Of a stretch of DNA of 64,000 bases, positions 1,396 to 6,249 are shown piece after piece. Origin of the DNA: Pleurocapsa minor GSE-CHR-MK 17-07R (GTDB lineage Bacteria; Chloroflexota; Anaerolineae; Aggregatilineales; Phototrophicaceae); the NCBI GenBank assembly GCA_019359125.1, contig JAHHHY010000002.1:496001-560000 (forward strand), in the 5' to 3' direction. The notes below the pieces were generated by a model, which worked only from the letters and a program-made list of their open reading frames with translations, was not told the DNA's origin and searched no databases. The position numbers were made by a program, and so were the translations under genes. Numbering within the stretch: the stretch's first letter is position 1; each line of letters starts with the position of its first letter.

Positions 1396-2934
1396 ATGAT
1401 GTCTTCCACGAATACGCCGCTGTTTGAGGTGCTGGGCGCGACTAAAGAGTTTGGCGCGACGCTGGCGCTGGAGGATGCCTCGCTGACGCTGCGCGCGGGC
1501 GAAGTGCATGCCCTGATGGGCGAAAACGGCGCGGGCAAAAGCACGCTCATCAAGGTGATGGCGGGCGTCACCCATGCTGACGCGGTCGCTTACCGGATGG
1601 ATGGCCGGCCCGTGCACATCGGCGGTGCGGCGGACGCTTTCAGGCTGGGCCTGCGCTTCATTCACCAGGAACTGAATATCGTGCCGCAGCTCAGCGTGGC
1701 CGAGAATATGCACATGGGCCAGCGTTATCCGCGCAGGCTGGGCATGTTCGTGCACTGGGGCGAGCTGTACCGCCGCTCACAGCAGGTGCTGGATACGTTG
1801 GGTGTGGGCTATATCTCGCCGCGTGCGATCATCGCCCGGCTGAGCGCAGGGGACCAGATGCTGGCCAAGATCGCCAGCGCATTTATGCCAGATGCAGGCG
1901 ATGCGTCGCGGCCAGCGCGGGTGTATGTGCTGGACGAGCCGACCGCCGCGCTGACCGGGGAAGAAGCCGAGCGCCTGTTTGGCGTAATTCAGGCGCTGAC
2001 CGCGCAGGGCTGTGCCGTGCTGTATGTCTCGCACCGCATGGACGAGATTTTCAGGATCGCCCAGCGTGTGACCGTCATGCGCGATGGCCGCGTGGTCAGC
2101 GAAAGCCTGATTGCTGACACGACGCCGGATGTGCTCATCCATGACATGACCGGCCGCACGCTGGAGACGCTGTATCCGCCGCGCCAGAGCGCCATTTCGC
2201 CTGAGCCACTGTTGTCGGTCGAGGGGCTGGTCACGACGAAAATACGCGCTGTCTCATTCACGCTGGCGCGCGGTGAAATCATGGGCGTCGCCGGCCTGAG
2301 TGCGTCCGGCCGCACCGAATTATTGCGTGCATTGATGGGCGCGGATCGAAAGCTGTCCGGACGGGTGGCGCTGCGCGGCAAGGTGGTCAACTGGATTTCG
2401 CCACGGCGAAGCTGGGATCGCGGGCTGGCCTATGTGCCCGAAGAACGCCGGTCGCAGGGGCTGGTGCTGTCGCGCAGCATTGAGGACAACGCCGTGCTGC
2501 CGCATCTGGATGCGTTCAGCCGGGGGCGCGTGTTTGTCAACCGGCGGCGTGAACGGCGCGAGACCGAGTCGCTGGCACTGGCCACCCGCCTGAAAGCGCG
2601 CCATCCGTCACAAGTCGTGCGCGAGCTGAGCGGTGGCAACCAGCAGAAGGTCGTGTTTGCGCGCGCGCTGGCGGGCAGGCCAGATGTGCTGCTGCTGGAC
2701 GAGCCCACGCGCGGCATTGACGTGAGCGCCAAACATGATATCTACCAGCTCATTCGCCAGAAAAGCGCGGACGGCTGCGGCGTGTTACTGGTCTCCAGCG
2801 ACCTGCCGGAGCTGATCGGCCTGTGTGACCGCATCCTGGTCATGCGTGCCGGGCGCGCCCATGCTGTCGTCAGCGCGGCCAATCTGACCCAGGCGGATCT
2901 GCTGCGGCTTTGCTATGGAGAGAAGATTTCGTGA
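1396..2934 (+). CDS. Sugar ABC transporter ATP-binding protein (RbsA/MglA-like, two NBDs)
   Basis: The protein has about 512 residues with two nucleotide-binding domains in tandem, as in RbsA, MglA and XylG. The first has a clear Walker A (MGENGAGKST) and Walker B ending in DEPTAALT. The second has the degenerate Walker A usual for the C-terminal half (GLSASGRTELL), a good signature (ELSGGNQQK) and DEPTRGID. The first-half signature is weak (RLSAGDQM). The start is uncertain: in-frame ATGs occur at 1348, 1396 and 1399, and I chose 1396 because the ATPase fold begins soon after it. The stop overlaps the GTG of the permease. Confidence 0.9.
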   Translation: MMSSTNTPLFEVLGATKEFGATLALEDASLTLRAGEVHALMGENGAGKSTLIKVMAGVTHADAVAYRMDGRPVHIGGAADAFRLGLRFIHQELNIVPQLSVAENMHMGQRYPRRLGMFVHWGELYRRSQQVLDTLGVGYISPRAIIARLSAGDQMLAKIASAFMPDAGDASRPARVYVLDEPTAALTGEEAERLFGVIQALTAQGCAVLYVSHRMDEIFRIAQRVTVMRDGRVVSESLIADTTPDVLIHDMTGRTLETLYPPRQSAISPEPLLSVEGLVTTKIRAVSFTLARGEIMGVAGLSASGRTELLRALMGADRKLSGRVALRGKVVNWISPRRSWDRGLAYVPEERRSQGLVLSRSIEDNAVLPHLDAFSRGRVFVNRRRERRETESLALATRLKARHPSQVVRELSGGNQQKVVFARALAGRPDVLLLDEPTRGIDVSAKHDIYQLIRQKSADGCGVLLVSSDLPELIGLCDRILVMRAGRAHAVVSAANLTQADLLRLCYGEKIS

Positions 2935-3932
2935 ATACCACCCCGTCTATACCCCATCCCGCACGACAGATCGGCCGCATCCTGCGCCGTTTCGGCACGC
3001 TGATCGGCTTTTTTGCCATCGTGCTGTTCTTCTGGTCGCAGCGGCCGGATACCTTTATGACCGTGCGCAACTGGCTAAATATCACCCAGCAGATCAGCAT
3101 TTTAGGCGTGGTCGCCTTCACCATGACGGTGGTCATGGTCATGGGCGACTATGACCTGAGCGTGGGCGCGATGGCCAGCCTGGGCGGTATCGCTGCGGCG
3201 CTGCTCTTTCAGCAGGAAATGCCGGTGCTGACCGGTATCGCGGTCGCGCTGCTGATCGGCGTCGCCGGCGGCCTGCTGAACGGCGTGCTGGTGTCGCTGG
3301 TGGGCATTACGCCATTTGTCGCCACGCTGGGCATGCTGACGGTGTTCAGCGGGGTCGCCTTCTTCATCAGTGAAGGCGAGACTATTTTTGGCCGGGCGAT
3401 TCCCGAGCAGTTCAGCGACTTTGCGCGCGGCGGCATCCCGCTGGGCACGATTGGCGAGCAGGCCGTCCTGCTGCCCAACCTGACGATCGTGGCGCTGCTG
3501 GTGCTGCTGGCGGTGTGGGTGCTGCTGGAGCAAACGACCTTTGGCCGCAGGCTGTATGCTATCGGCGGCAACAAAGAGGCGGCCCGGCTGGGCGGCGTGC
3601 GCCTGCGCCTGTTGCGCCTGATCGCGTTTGCGGTGACGGGCGTGGGCGCGGCCGTGGCAGGGCTGATGCTGGTCAGCCGGCTGGCCAGTGCCAATCCCAC
3701 GCAGGGCGATGGCCTGATGCTGGACGCCATCGCAGCCGTGTTCCTGGGCATGACCATGAGCGAGGAGGGCGAGCCGCATGTGCTGGGCACGCTGGTGGGC
3801 GTGCTGATCCTGGGCGTGCTGCGCAACGGCCTGACGCAATTGGCCATCGACAGCTATGTGCAGCAGATCCTCACCGGGGCGATCATCATCCTGGCGGTCA
3901 CACTCAGCCGCCTCATCAGAAGGGCATCGTAA
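2931..3932 (+). CDS. Sugar ABC transporter permease (RbsC-like)
   Basis: This is a roughly 333-residue polytopic membrane protein of the BPD_transp_2 family. It has the glycine-rich FVATLGMLTVFSG segment and the conserved loop with YAIGGNKEAARLGGV that contacts the ATPase. I place the start at the GTG at 2931, because its GTGA overlaps the TGA of the ATPase gene and GGAGAGAAGA lies just upstream. An ATG at 2910 would add only seven residues. It forms the channel for the sugar bound by the upstream binding protein. Confidence 0.88.
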   Translation: MNTTPSIPHPARQIGRILRRFGTLIGFFAIVLFFWSQRPDTFMTVRNWLNITQQISILGVVAFTMTVVMVMGDYDLSVGAMASLGGIAAALLFQQEMPVLTGIAVALLIGVAGGLLNGVLVSLVGITPFVATLGMLTVFSGVAFFISEGETIFGRAIPEQFSDFARGGIPLGTIGEQAVLLPNLTIVALLVLLAVWVLLEQTTFGRRLYAIGGNKEAARLGGVRLRLLRLIAFAVTGVGAAVAGLMLVSRLASANPTQGDGLMLDAIAAVFLGMTMSEEGEPHVLGTLVGVLILGVLRNGLTQLAIDSYVQQILTGAIIILAVTLSRLIRRAS

Positions 3933-3936
3933 GCCT

Positions 3937-4731
3937 ATGGGCACCAATCCGCTGCTGGAGACGCTGCGCGACATCCGGGCATCCGGCCGCATGGCGCTGT
4001 GCGGGTATTTTCTGGCCGGTTATCCCATGCCCGAACAGTTCTTTCATGTGGCCCGCGCCTCGCGCGAGCTGGATGTGATCGAATTTGGCATCCCCACGCC
4101 GACGCCCGTCATGGACGGGCCGGTGATTGCGCGGGCGCACGAAGTCGTTATTCACGAGCGCGGCCTGGGCGCGGAAACGGCGCTGGCGCTGATCGGCGGC
4201 CTGCGCGATTTGCGTCAGCCGCGCTTTGTCATGACCTACGCCGATGTCGGACGCGGACTGGATGGCTTTCTGCGCCTGTGCCTGACCAATGATATTCACG
4301 GCATGCTGGCGCCTGACCTGCGCCTGGATGAGACCACCTTTGTCGTCACCATCGCGCACGCGCTGAACTTATGCCTGTTTTCGCTGCTGGATGCCCGCGC
4401 TGATGATGCCGCGCTGGCCCATGCGGTCGATCATTCGGATATCGTGTATCTGAAAGCATCGGTCGGGCCGACCGGCACCGCCGCCGATTTGTCGCGTGCG
4501 GGCGAACTGTATGCCACACTGGAAAGCGCGATTATGCGCATCCGGCAGCGTCGGCCGGGCATGCCGGTGGCAGTGGGCATCGGCCTGCAAACGCCGGAGC
4601 AGGTGGCCGCGCTGGCCGCGCTGGATGTCGATATGGCGATCGTGGGCACGCGCATTATTGAGCACGTGCAGCAGGGAGAGGCCGCGCTGACCGCGTATAT
4701 CCGCGAGATGCGCGCCGCGACCCTGCTGTAA
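3937..4731 (+). CDS. TrpA-like TIM-barrel protein (tryptophan synthase alpha family) in a sugar operon
   Basis: The 264-residue protein aligns along its length with tryptophan synthase alpha. The catalytic pair Glu49 (in DVIEFGIP) and Asp60 (in VMDGP) falls at the same residue numbers as in E. coli TrpA. The family motifs MTYADVG, GMLAPDL, the phosphate-loop-like GIGLQTPEQV and IVGTRI are recognisable. The FSDP segment of true TrpA is replaced by TPTP, and no trpB is nearby. It starts 4 bp after the permease and 22 bp before an FGGY kinase. TrpA carries out a retro-aldol cleavage that yields glyceraldehyde 3-phosphate. An analogous sugar-phosphate aldolase role is therefore plausible, but this is inference. 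Confidence 0.72.
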   Translation: MGTNPLLETLRDIRASGRMALCGYFLAGYPMPEQFFHVARASRELDVIEFGIPTPTPVMDGPVIARAHEVVIHERGLGAETALALIGGLRDLRQPRFVMTYADVGRGLDGFLRLCLTNDIHGMLAPDLRLDETTFVVTIAHALNLCLFSLLDARADDAALAHAVDHSDIVYLKASVGPTGTAADLSRAGELYATLESAIMRIRQRRPGMPVAVGIGLQTPEQVAALAALDVDMAIVGTRIIEHVQQGEAALTAYIREMRAATLL

Positions 4732-4752
4732 ACCAAAACTGGAGGCGTAAAC

Positions 4753-6249
4753 ATGCTGTGGCTGGCATTTGATGTGGGCACGACCGGCCTGAAGGCTGGC
4801 CTGGTGCGCCAGTTGGAAGATGGGACGTTGACACTGGAGGCGCACGAAATGCGCCCATATGCCACCCATACCGGTGCGGCAGGCGTGGTCGAGCAGGATG
4901 CGCGCGACTGGTGGCGGGCCGCTGTCGAGGCCTGCCTGACGCTCTATCGCAATTCCGGTGAGCAGCCGGACGCCATCGCCCTGACCGGGCAGATGCAGGA
5001 TACCATCCTGCTCGACAGCGCCGGAGAGCCGGTCCGTCCGGTCATCCTGTACAGCGATTCCCGCGCTGTGAATGAATCCGAGACGCTGTCCGCCGCGCTG
5101 GATATGGCTGCGCTGGGCGAGAGTGTGGGCAGTGAACAGGGGCCCGGCGGCCTGCTGCCCAAGCTGATGTGGCTGACGGCCAACGAGCCGGAGTCGGCGG
5201 CACGGACGGCACACCTGCTGCTGGGCGCCGCTGACGTGCTGGCTCTGCGCATGACCGGGGCTGCGTGCAGCGATTCCACCACGGCCAGCACGACCGGCCT
5301 GATGCATCTCGCGGCGGGCGACTGGCAGCCGGAAAGCGTCTTTGCTGCCGCGGGCCTGTCCGACTGGCGGGCGAAGCTGCCGAAGCTTGTGCGCGGCGGG
5401 TCGCAGGTGGGGACATTGGGGGAAGATGCGGCCGAGGCGCTGGGGATTCAGGCAGGCATCCCGGTCTATCTGGGTGCTGGCGACGCAGGCTCGACCACAA
5501 TTGGCGCGGGCTGCGGCGAACCGGGACACGCCTATCTGTATGTGGGCACCAGCGGCTGGGCGGCGATGTCGGTCCCGGTTGAGGCGCGGCCGCCGCTGGC
5601 ATCAGGCGTGTTTGCGCTGGCGCACCCGGACGCATCGCGTCTGTTTGTGATTGCGCCGCTGCTGACGGCGGGCGGCAATCTGGCCTGGATTCGCGGCGTG
5701 ACCGGGTCGACCGGCGTGCCCTATGAAGACGTGATTGCCGCTGCGGTTGAACGTGAGCCGACGCGCCTGCTCTATCTGCCCTATTTGACGGGCGAGCGCT
5801 CGCCGTTTACCGACCCGGCGGCGGCGGGCGCATTCATCGGCGTGCGGGCCCAGCATACGCCCGCCGATCTGACGCGTGCGGTGCTGGAGGGCGTGGCGAT
5901 GGCCTATCGGCATATTCTCTCGTCCGTGCTGGCGACGCTGCCCGCCAATGGCCTGCTGATGACCGGCGGCGGGGCGCGCTCTGCGGCATGGGGACAGATT
6001 TTCGCGGATGTGCTGGGCATCCCGGTGCGCCGGGCTGCCGCGCTGGAACACACTGGCCTGCTGGGTGCAGTCGCGACTGCGCAGGCACAGCAGGGCGATA
6101 ATGGGGCGTATGCCCGACTGGCTGCTGTCGAGGATGCGGCGTATATCGAGACCCCGCGGGAAGCATGGCGCGCGCATTATGACGCGCAGTTTGCGCTGTA
6201 TGCGCAGGCTTATCCGGCGCTCAAGGCGATCTTCGCTGCCCAGGCCTGA
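4753..6249 (+). CDS. FGGY-family carbohydrate kinase (xylulokinase-like)
   Basis: The protein has 498 residues, the usual length for xylulokinases. It begins with the phosphate-binding FDVGTTGLKAGL, has ALTGQMQD near residue 80, the catalytic-Asp region GAGDAGSTTIG, and a C-terminal adenosine motif MTGGGARSAAWGQIFADV. GGAGGCG at 4741-4747 precedes the ATG. It is the last gene of the sugar operon and would phosphorylate the imported sugar or a derivative. The exact substrate (xylulose, ribulose or other) cannot be told from motifs. The strong hairpin after it ends the operon. Confidence 0.87.
   Translation: MLWLAFDVGTTGLKAGLVRQLEDGTLTLEAHEMRPYATHTGAAGVVEQDARDWWRAAVEACLTLYRNSGEQPDAIALTGQMQDTILLDSAGEPVRPVILYSDSRAVNESETLSAALDMAALGESVGSEQGPGGLLPKLMWLTANEPESAARTAHLLLGAADVLALRMTGAACSDSTTASTTGLMHLAAGDWQPESVFAAAGLSDWRAKLPKLVRGGSQVGTLGEDAAEALGIQAGIPVYLGAGDAGSTTIGAGCGEPGHAYLYVGTSGWAAMSVPVEARPPLASGVFALAHPDASRLFVIAPLLTAGGNLAWIRGVTGSTGVPYEDVIAAAVEREPTRLLYLPYLTGERSPFTDPAAAGAFIGVRAQHTPADLTRAVLEGVAMAYRHILSSVLATLPANGLLMTGGGARSAAWGQIFADVLGIPVRRAAALEHTGLLGAVATAQAQQGDNGAYARLAAVEDAAYIETPREAWRAHYDAQFALYAQAYPALKAIFAAQA

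Follow-up and report, generated by a model that had tools for sequence, protein, structure and literature searches.

A TrpB-less TrpA paralogue beside sugar transporter and kinase genes in Anaerolineae, tentatively a Schiff-base aldolase

Textbooks present TrpA, the alpha subunit of tryptophan synthase, as an enzyme of one reaction and one partner, TrpB. What, then, does a TrpA-like protein do in an operon for the uptake and phosphorylation of a sugar? The gene in question lies in a 64,000 nucleotide stretch of a Chloroflexota genome (here called the window; contig JAHHHY010000002.1, positions 496,001 to 560,000), at the left edge of which there are five codirectional genes, all on the forward strand. 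They encode a sugar solute-binding protein (SBP; Peripla_BP_4, CUT2/RbsB type, Pfam 138.9 bits; 334–1290), a sugar ABC transporter ATPase of the RbsA type with two ABC domains (Pfam ABC_tran, two stretches; 1393–2934), an RbsC-type permease (Pfam BPD_transp_2, 142.9 bits; 2934–3932), the 264 aa TrpA-like protein (3937–4731), recognised by its Pfam match, orthologues, alignment columns and a structure model, and a xylulokinase-like FGGY carbohydrate kinase (4753–6249). The TrpA-like gene starts 4 bases after the permease stop, and the kinase gene starts 21 bases after the TrpA-like stop. A family SBP, a double ATPase and a permease, the components of a CUT2 (RbsABC-type) importer, are all present; the best NCBIfam model for the ATPase is PRK10762 RbsA, with a score under its cut-off. 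The kinase includes both FGGY domains (FGGY_N 159.9 bits, FGGY_C 99.5 bits). Gene order and domain matches thus bear out the first-pass annotation, which had seen the TrpA-like gene flanked by an RbsABC-type transporter and an FGGY kinase and had noted that it has no TrpB partner; trpB is absent from the genes read around it. An inverted repeat (AAGCAAAT...ATTTGCTT; 1338–1364), found by eye between the SBP and ATPase genes, may lower transcription past the SBP gene.

The TrpA-like protein matches Pfam Trp_syntA over residues 12–249 with 109.4 bits (cut-off 27), but falls short of the TIGR00262 trpA equivalog cut-off (94.1 versus 102.35 bits), for which the genome's own TrpA scores 247.5 bits. 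The genome holds two Trp_syntA matches, of 283.6 and 109 bits, and the two proteins share 27% identity. The genome's own trpA sits on a different contig, clustered with trpB and trpF-, trpC-, trpD- and trpG-type genes, where trpA and trpB are separated by a gene for a 149 aa protein that matches no model at 1e-30. Seven of the eight genomes found to contain the TrpA-like gene hold a second TrpA scoring 268.8–286.6 bits, against 98.9–117.5 bits for the TrpA-like proteins (trpB beside TrpA was checked at three loci, L026, L057 and L100). In the eighth, G473, the TrpA-like match was the only one seen, and this is a MAG that is 84% complete and in approximately 850 contigs. The case that would have made the gene an ordinary trpA, namely that it is the only one in its genome, therefore fails in seven of eight genomes, the eighth being incomplete.

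A profile of the orthologues used at E 1e-35 found the gene in 8 of 154 genomes of the order (among candidates scored per genome). The orthologues are 53–64% identical to the window protein and occupy the same operon position in all eight genomes. The order SBP-ATPase-permease-TrpA-like-kinase is kept at 8/8 loci, three of which are cut by contig ends (L039 at the SBP, L023 and L042 at the kinase), and the SBPs of the other seven operons are 63–82% identical to that in the window, one of them being a 68 aa fragment at a contig end. Genome searches covered Chloroflexota (154 genomes of the order, a class sample of 396 and a phylum sample of 400), and in the phylum sample at 1e-30 the window genome alone was returned (among candidates scored per genome). 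A scan of 84,980 species with two short patterns, which are missing from two of the eight known orthologues, returned five loci, all in Anaerolineae or Ardenticatenia MAGs; by our matching these correspond to G473, G486, G018, G045 and G488 of the order search. No match was found in the viral contigs searched, and the single match in the plasmids searched is an ordinary trpA. The family is small and, within the genomes searched, confined to Anaerolineae MAGs.

In a tree of TrpA homologues, the eight orthologues form one clade (100/100 support, branch length 2.37) with all 30 TrpA rows opposite; L008 and L022 were dropped from the TrpA rows (tblastn without match). Phylogeny and genome context, the check that the first-pass annotation had called for, give a separate clade that is always found in the sugar operon. 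NG86 dN/dS values are 0.06–0.33 in 21 of 28 orthologue pairs, with dS at least 0.94 and hence near saturation; dS was not computable for the seven pairs that include L031. The gene's presence there is more than chance, given that eight genomes have it in this position and that dN/dS is low. These data support the view that the protein is a TrpA paralogue that has diverged, has no TrpB and belongs to a conserved operon for the uptake and phosphorylation of a sugar.

The protein shares with TrpA (PF00290) the catalytic Glu and Asp, the Thr-Gly of loop 6 and the G-x-G and G-S/T phosphate motifs. E49, D60, Y171, T179 and G180 are invariant in all eight orthologues and in 28/28 Chloroflexota TrpA rows, as expected from the earlier observation that Glu49 and Asp60 of TrpA are at identical positions. 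The phosphate-loop pattern is likewise present, but in altered form, with GIG (214–216) for GFG and GT (237–238) for GS. The FSDP segment, said to be missing, is indeed missing from 8/8 orthologues (27 of the 28 TrpA rows read PFSDP and the remaining one PHSDP), and the N-P that follows the beta-3 tyrosine in 28/28 TrpA rows is deleted from all eight (two residues). PMC8187860 reports that TrpA Asn104 and its neighbours covary with the beta subunit, so the loss of FSDP and N-P fits a life without TrpB. Four further columns separate the two groups. Residue 173 is Lys in all eight orthologues (K173; codon at 4453–4455 on the forward strand, placed from the ORF start), but Val (25) or Leu (3) in the 28 TrpA rows and Val, Val and Ala in three TrpAs from the PDB. 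D152, T238 and K/R239 are each found in all eight orthologues and are replaced by Ala, Ser and Ala, respectively, in 28/28 TrpA rows. R106 and T100 are also invariant in the orthologues, yet occur in three and six TrpA rows and are not diagnostic. A profile–profile alignment with TrpA gave the same register as the row alignment. In the class sample at E 1e-28, 12 genomes besides that of the window passed, and 12/12 are ordinary at the K173 column. Judged from its sequence, the TrpA-like protein represents a real and conserved TrpA subfamily that has diverged and whose active site is changed; we infer a function for it below. The invariant K173 and D152 and the N-P deletion go beyond the first-pass annotation, as does the finding that many operons with the same other genes lack this one.

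An AlphaFold2 model built from six sequences has a mean pLDDT of 84.5 and a pTM of 0.86. Confidence is lower locally, with an average of 68 for the block 171–180 that includes K173 and values below 50 for residues 104–106. The predicted strand beta-2 covers 47–51, with E49 mid-strand, and beta-6 covers 169–173, with K173 as its last residue. The 50 chains listed in a VIA-align search all belong to TrpA or to the homologous BX1, the best with Z 30.6 and an rmsd of 2.5 over 252 aligned residues. Matching TrpA numbering by the T183-G184 motif, we take K173 to correspond to Leu177 and Y171 to Tyr175. In the simulations of PMC8187860, Leu177 is packed against Phe212 and against Ile20 of the beta subunit, which would put the matching K173 at the rim of the active site. 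By analogy with Leu177, the K173 side chain would face inward.

In TrpA, a retro-aldol reaction frees glyceraldehyde 3-phosphate (G3P): Glu49 accepts the proton of the hydroxyl group, with the protonated indole ring serving as electron sink. A general statement on this reaction is found in the abstract of PMC11574760. A ketose phosphate carries no indole and would need an imine or a metal instead, to which an inward-facing lysine on beta-6 would be the class I answer. The Schiff-base lysine of class I aldolases sits on beta-6, and in KDPG aldolase the pair is Glu45/Lys133. According to PMC2728841, class I aldolases, KDPG aldolase and DERA among them, share a structurally conserved catalytic lysine. 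The invariance of K173 makes a sugar-phosphate aldolase more plausible.

From family, gene context, paralogy, invariant residues and predicted strand position, we infer a substrate, an imine and products (a triose phosphate or similar, and a small carbonyl compound), and we propose, tentatively and with a little less than even confidence, that a TrpA paralogue has become TrpB-free and acts as a Schiff-base aldolase on the product of the FGGY kinase. The CUT2-type transporter would import a sugar or sugar alcohol, and the kinase would add a phosphate to the far end of the imported compound, which is most likely a ketose. The TrpA-like barrel, working without TrpB, would then split a C-C bond of the kinase product. 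Its phosphate would be held in the beta-7/beta-8 site inherited from TrpA, and K173 at the end of beta-6 would make an imine with the substrate carbonyl, the iminium taking over as electron sink from the indole ring of indole-glycerol phosphate. E49 would accept the carbinol proton as in TrpA, with D60 and D152 assisting. The cleavage would be a side branch, since many operons are without the gene. It is also possible, though we hold this with more reserve, that a class I sugar-phosphate aldolase was born within the TrpA family, the lysine at the end of beta-6 replacing the indole electron sink while the Glu and the phosphate site of TrpA were retained, so that the active site came by convergence to the Glu/Lys arrangement seen in KDPG aldolase.

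KDPG aldolase (Eda, PF01081), DERA and LsrF have a phosphate-binding barrel with a Glu on beta-2 and a Lys on beta-6, and the TrpA-like protein resembles them in its predicted strands. Sequence kinship with KDPG and other class I aldolases is not detectable: hmmscan (E up to 0.001) returned Trp_syntA and a sub-threshold His_biosynth match and none to PF01081, and in a profile alignment with KDPG aldolase sequences from 13 of 20 loci (27.8% probability) the lysines were out of register and the strands shifted. The logic of the operon is that of the Lsr system (LsrACDB, LsrK, LsrF), with a CUT2-type importer, an FGGY kinase and a phosphate-binding barrel enzyme, but here the barrel is of the TrpA rather than the LsrF type, there is a single permease gene and the kinase scores low as an AI-2 kinase (102.2 bits; model cut-off 528). 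A literature search at the level of terms, titles and the starts of abstracts found no paper on a TrpA-like aldolase or on trpA with a sugar transporter or kinase in Chloroflexi.

We favour a Schiff-base aldolase, and the main rival is that K173 is a mere substrate ligand. Here the kinase product would be acted on by other chemistry (an isomerase, an epimerase, a dehydratase or a non-imine lyase that uses E49/D60), with K173 only binding phosphate or carboxylate. K173, D152 and K/R239 make the indole pocket polar and partly basic, and binding alone would explain that; in addition, a weak ribulose-phosphate-epimerase-like barrel (64.5 bits, cut-off 212.6) is encoded near some kinases that lack the gene, as at L153. 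However, E49 and D60, the pair with which TrpA cleaves a C-C bond, are invariant in 8/8 orthologues, and an acid–base pair together with an inward-facing lysine suits a retro-aldol reaction. We regard other chemistry as rather unlikely.

Close kinases (E <1e-80, 44–53% identity) are found in 35 of the 154 genomes of the order, and a contig-end fragment in G494 (L042) makes 36; the next best kinase group is at 1e-72 and approximately 36% identity. The TrpA-like gene is beside this kinase in 8/8 cases, while 28 of the 36 kinase genomes are without it. The hypergeometric probability of this co-occurrence, which ignores relatedness, is 4.6e-6, or 2.0e-5 without the L042 fragment. When tblastn was run at the loci of 20 of the 28 kinase-only genomes, no TrpA-like sequence was found at any of the 20. 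The SBP, ATPase, permease and kinase genes are complete in 14 of these loci; of the others, two have the kinase without a transporter, one has the permease and kinase, one the ATPase, permease and kinase, and two are cut by contig ends. At L156 and L157, the close kinase is kept and no transporter adjoins it. As 14 of 20 kinase-only loci are otherwise complete, the kinase product can evidently be used without the TrpA-like protein. The TrpA-like gene is always beside the kinase and the kinase is often alone, and this one-way dependence points to a dispensable branch on the kinase product.

In the kinase tree, kinases with and without the TrpA-like gene are interleaved. Its seven TrpA-positive rows need six changes (mean of 6.6 in shuffled data, with 181/500 as low) and come together as a single group in none of 200 bootstrap trees; the bootstrap has not settled, and the starred branches force only two of the six changes. 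The simplest account is one insertion between the permease and the kinase followed by repeated loss, and transfer may also have occurred. The idea that the enzyme would add a new step to the catabolism of the operon's sugar is weakened, as a gene missing from 28/36 kinase genomes, with the kinases interleaved, cannot be essential.

That same dispensability, with the other four genes complete at 14/20 loci, would suit an aldolase whose substrate is not the kinase product but another metabolite, or a side product admitted by the transporter, operon membership then reflecting regulation. Against this, the gene is found only beside this kinase, and we consider such a role improbable. It is quite doubtful that the protein is a non-catalytic or regulatory TrpA relative, or the gene a decaying one: the patchy occurrence (8/154) would agree, but the residues of the active site do not vary and dN lies well under dS. 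A second true TrpA, or an indole-3-glycerol phosphate lyase like BX1, is very improbable; Trp_syntA membership, the retained catalytic Glu and Asp and the presence of BX1, a TrpB-independent TrpA homologue, among the structural matches listed are what it has in its favour, but the equivalog shortfall, the separate high-scoring TrpA in 7/8 genomes, the loss of FSDP and N-P and the altered residue columns, with a lysine and aspartates in the pocket (the lysine at the end of beta-6 in the orthologues), in a sugar operon rather than a setting of indole chemistry, led us to reject it.

If the Schiff-base aldolase reading is true, the locus would show how a retro-aldol barrel can swap its electron sink through few substitutions, and would add an aldolase family now annotated as 'tryptophan synthase subunit alpha'. 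A natural comparison is at hand, since dependence on the kinase runs one way: the same operon with and without the TrpA-like gene.

The kinase falls below the TIGR01312 XylB equivalog cut-off (280.9 versus 380.25 bits), and the TGQMQ and LYSD-R motifs are found in 32/32 kinases of the group compared, with TGQMQ unaltered in those next to the TrpA-like gene. The corresponding motif is GQMH in the PDB xylulokinases 2itm and 5vm1 and GQMQ in 3hz6 from C. violaceum. XylB-type signatures begin with Met-His (PMC3245297), so this kinase, with GQMQ, may have a substrate other than xylulose. Kinases with G-[QS]-M-Q, YSD-R and GT-[ST]-GW motifs were seen at 4753–6249 of the window, at L057:8500-9951 and in 3hz6, and by sequence the G-[QS]-M-Q kinases look like a subgroup apart from XylB. 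The best PDB matches of the SBP are 3l49 and 4wt7. The latter was solved with allitol, according to PMC10318746, and by analogy allitol is only a lead to the SBP substrate. A hexulose such as allulose, which would fit the release of G3P, is a guess.

Other neighbourhoods were considered as sources of clues. A plasmid operon of Rhizobium sp. BG6 (SBP 72%, ATPase 52% and permease 68% identical) has no TrpA-like gene and a different kinase, and amidohydrolase genes and a gamma-glutamyltransferase-like gene adjoin it; it points to no clear substrate and was set aside. On a Nitratireductor plasmid (L057:5015-7114, reverse strand), approximately 1.4 kb separates annotated trpB and trpA genes from an operon for a kinase and a CUT2 transporter. 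A link to indole or tryptophan through this trpBA pair of Nitratireductor sp. OM-1 was unusable, as the stretch begins at the record start in the two other Nitratireductor records.

Immediately to the left of the window (L025:1-10093, reverse strand; G000 contig 5, 486000–496092) is a divergent operon that includes homologues of OiaK, OiaX (RuBisCO-like) and the D-apionate lactonase ApnL, all scoring under their NCBIfam cut-offs. A GntR regulator and a second RbsABC-type transporter are also encoded in this operon. It is likely, judging by these homologues, a D-apionate pathway in an Anaerolineae genome. As the homologues are below cut-offs and none was found near the other orthologues in the stretches read, we treat this operon as a mere neighbour and not as part of the system. 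Downstream of a kinase operon that is without the TrpA-like gene (L153:9072-14669, forward strand) are E2-like and fused E1-like genes, a DeoR/LsrR-like regulator and the divergent ribulose-phosphate-epimerase-like barrel, all below cut-offs, and by eye similar sets are present near L154, L167 and L168.
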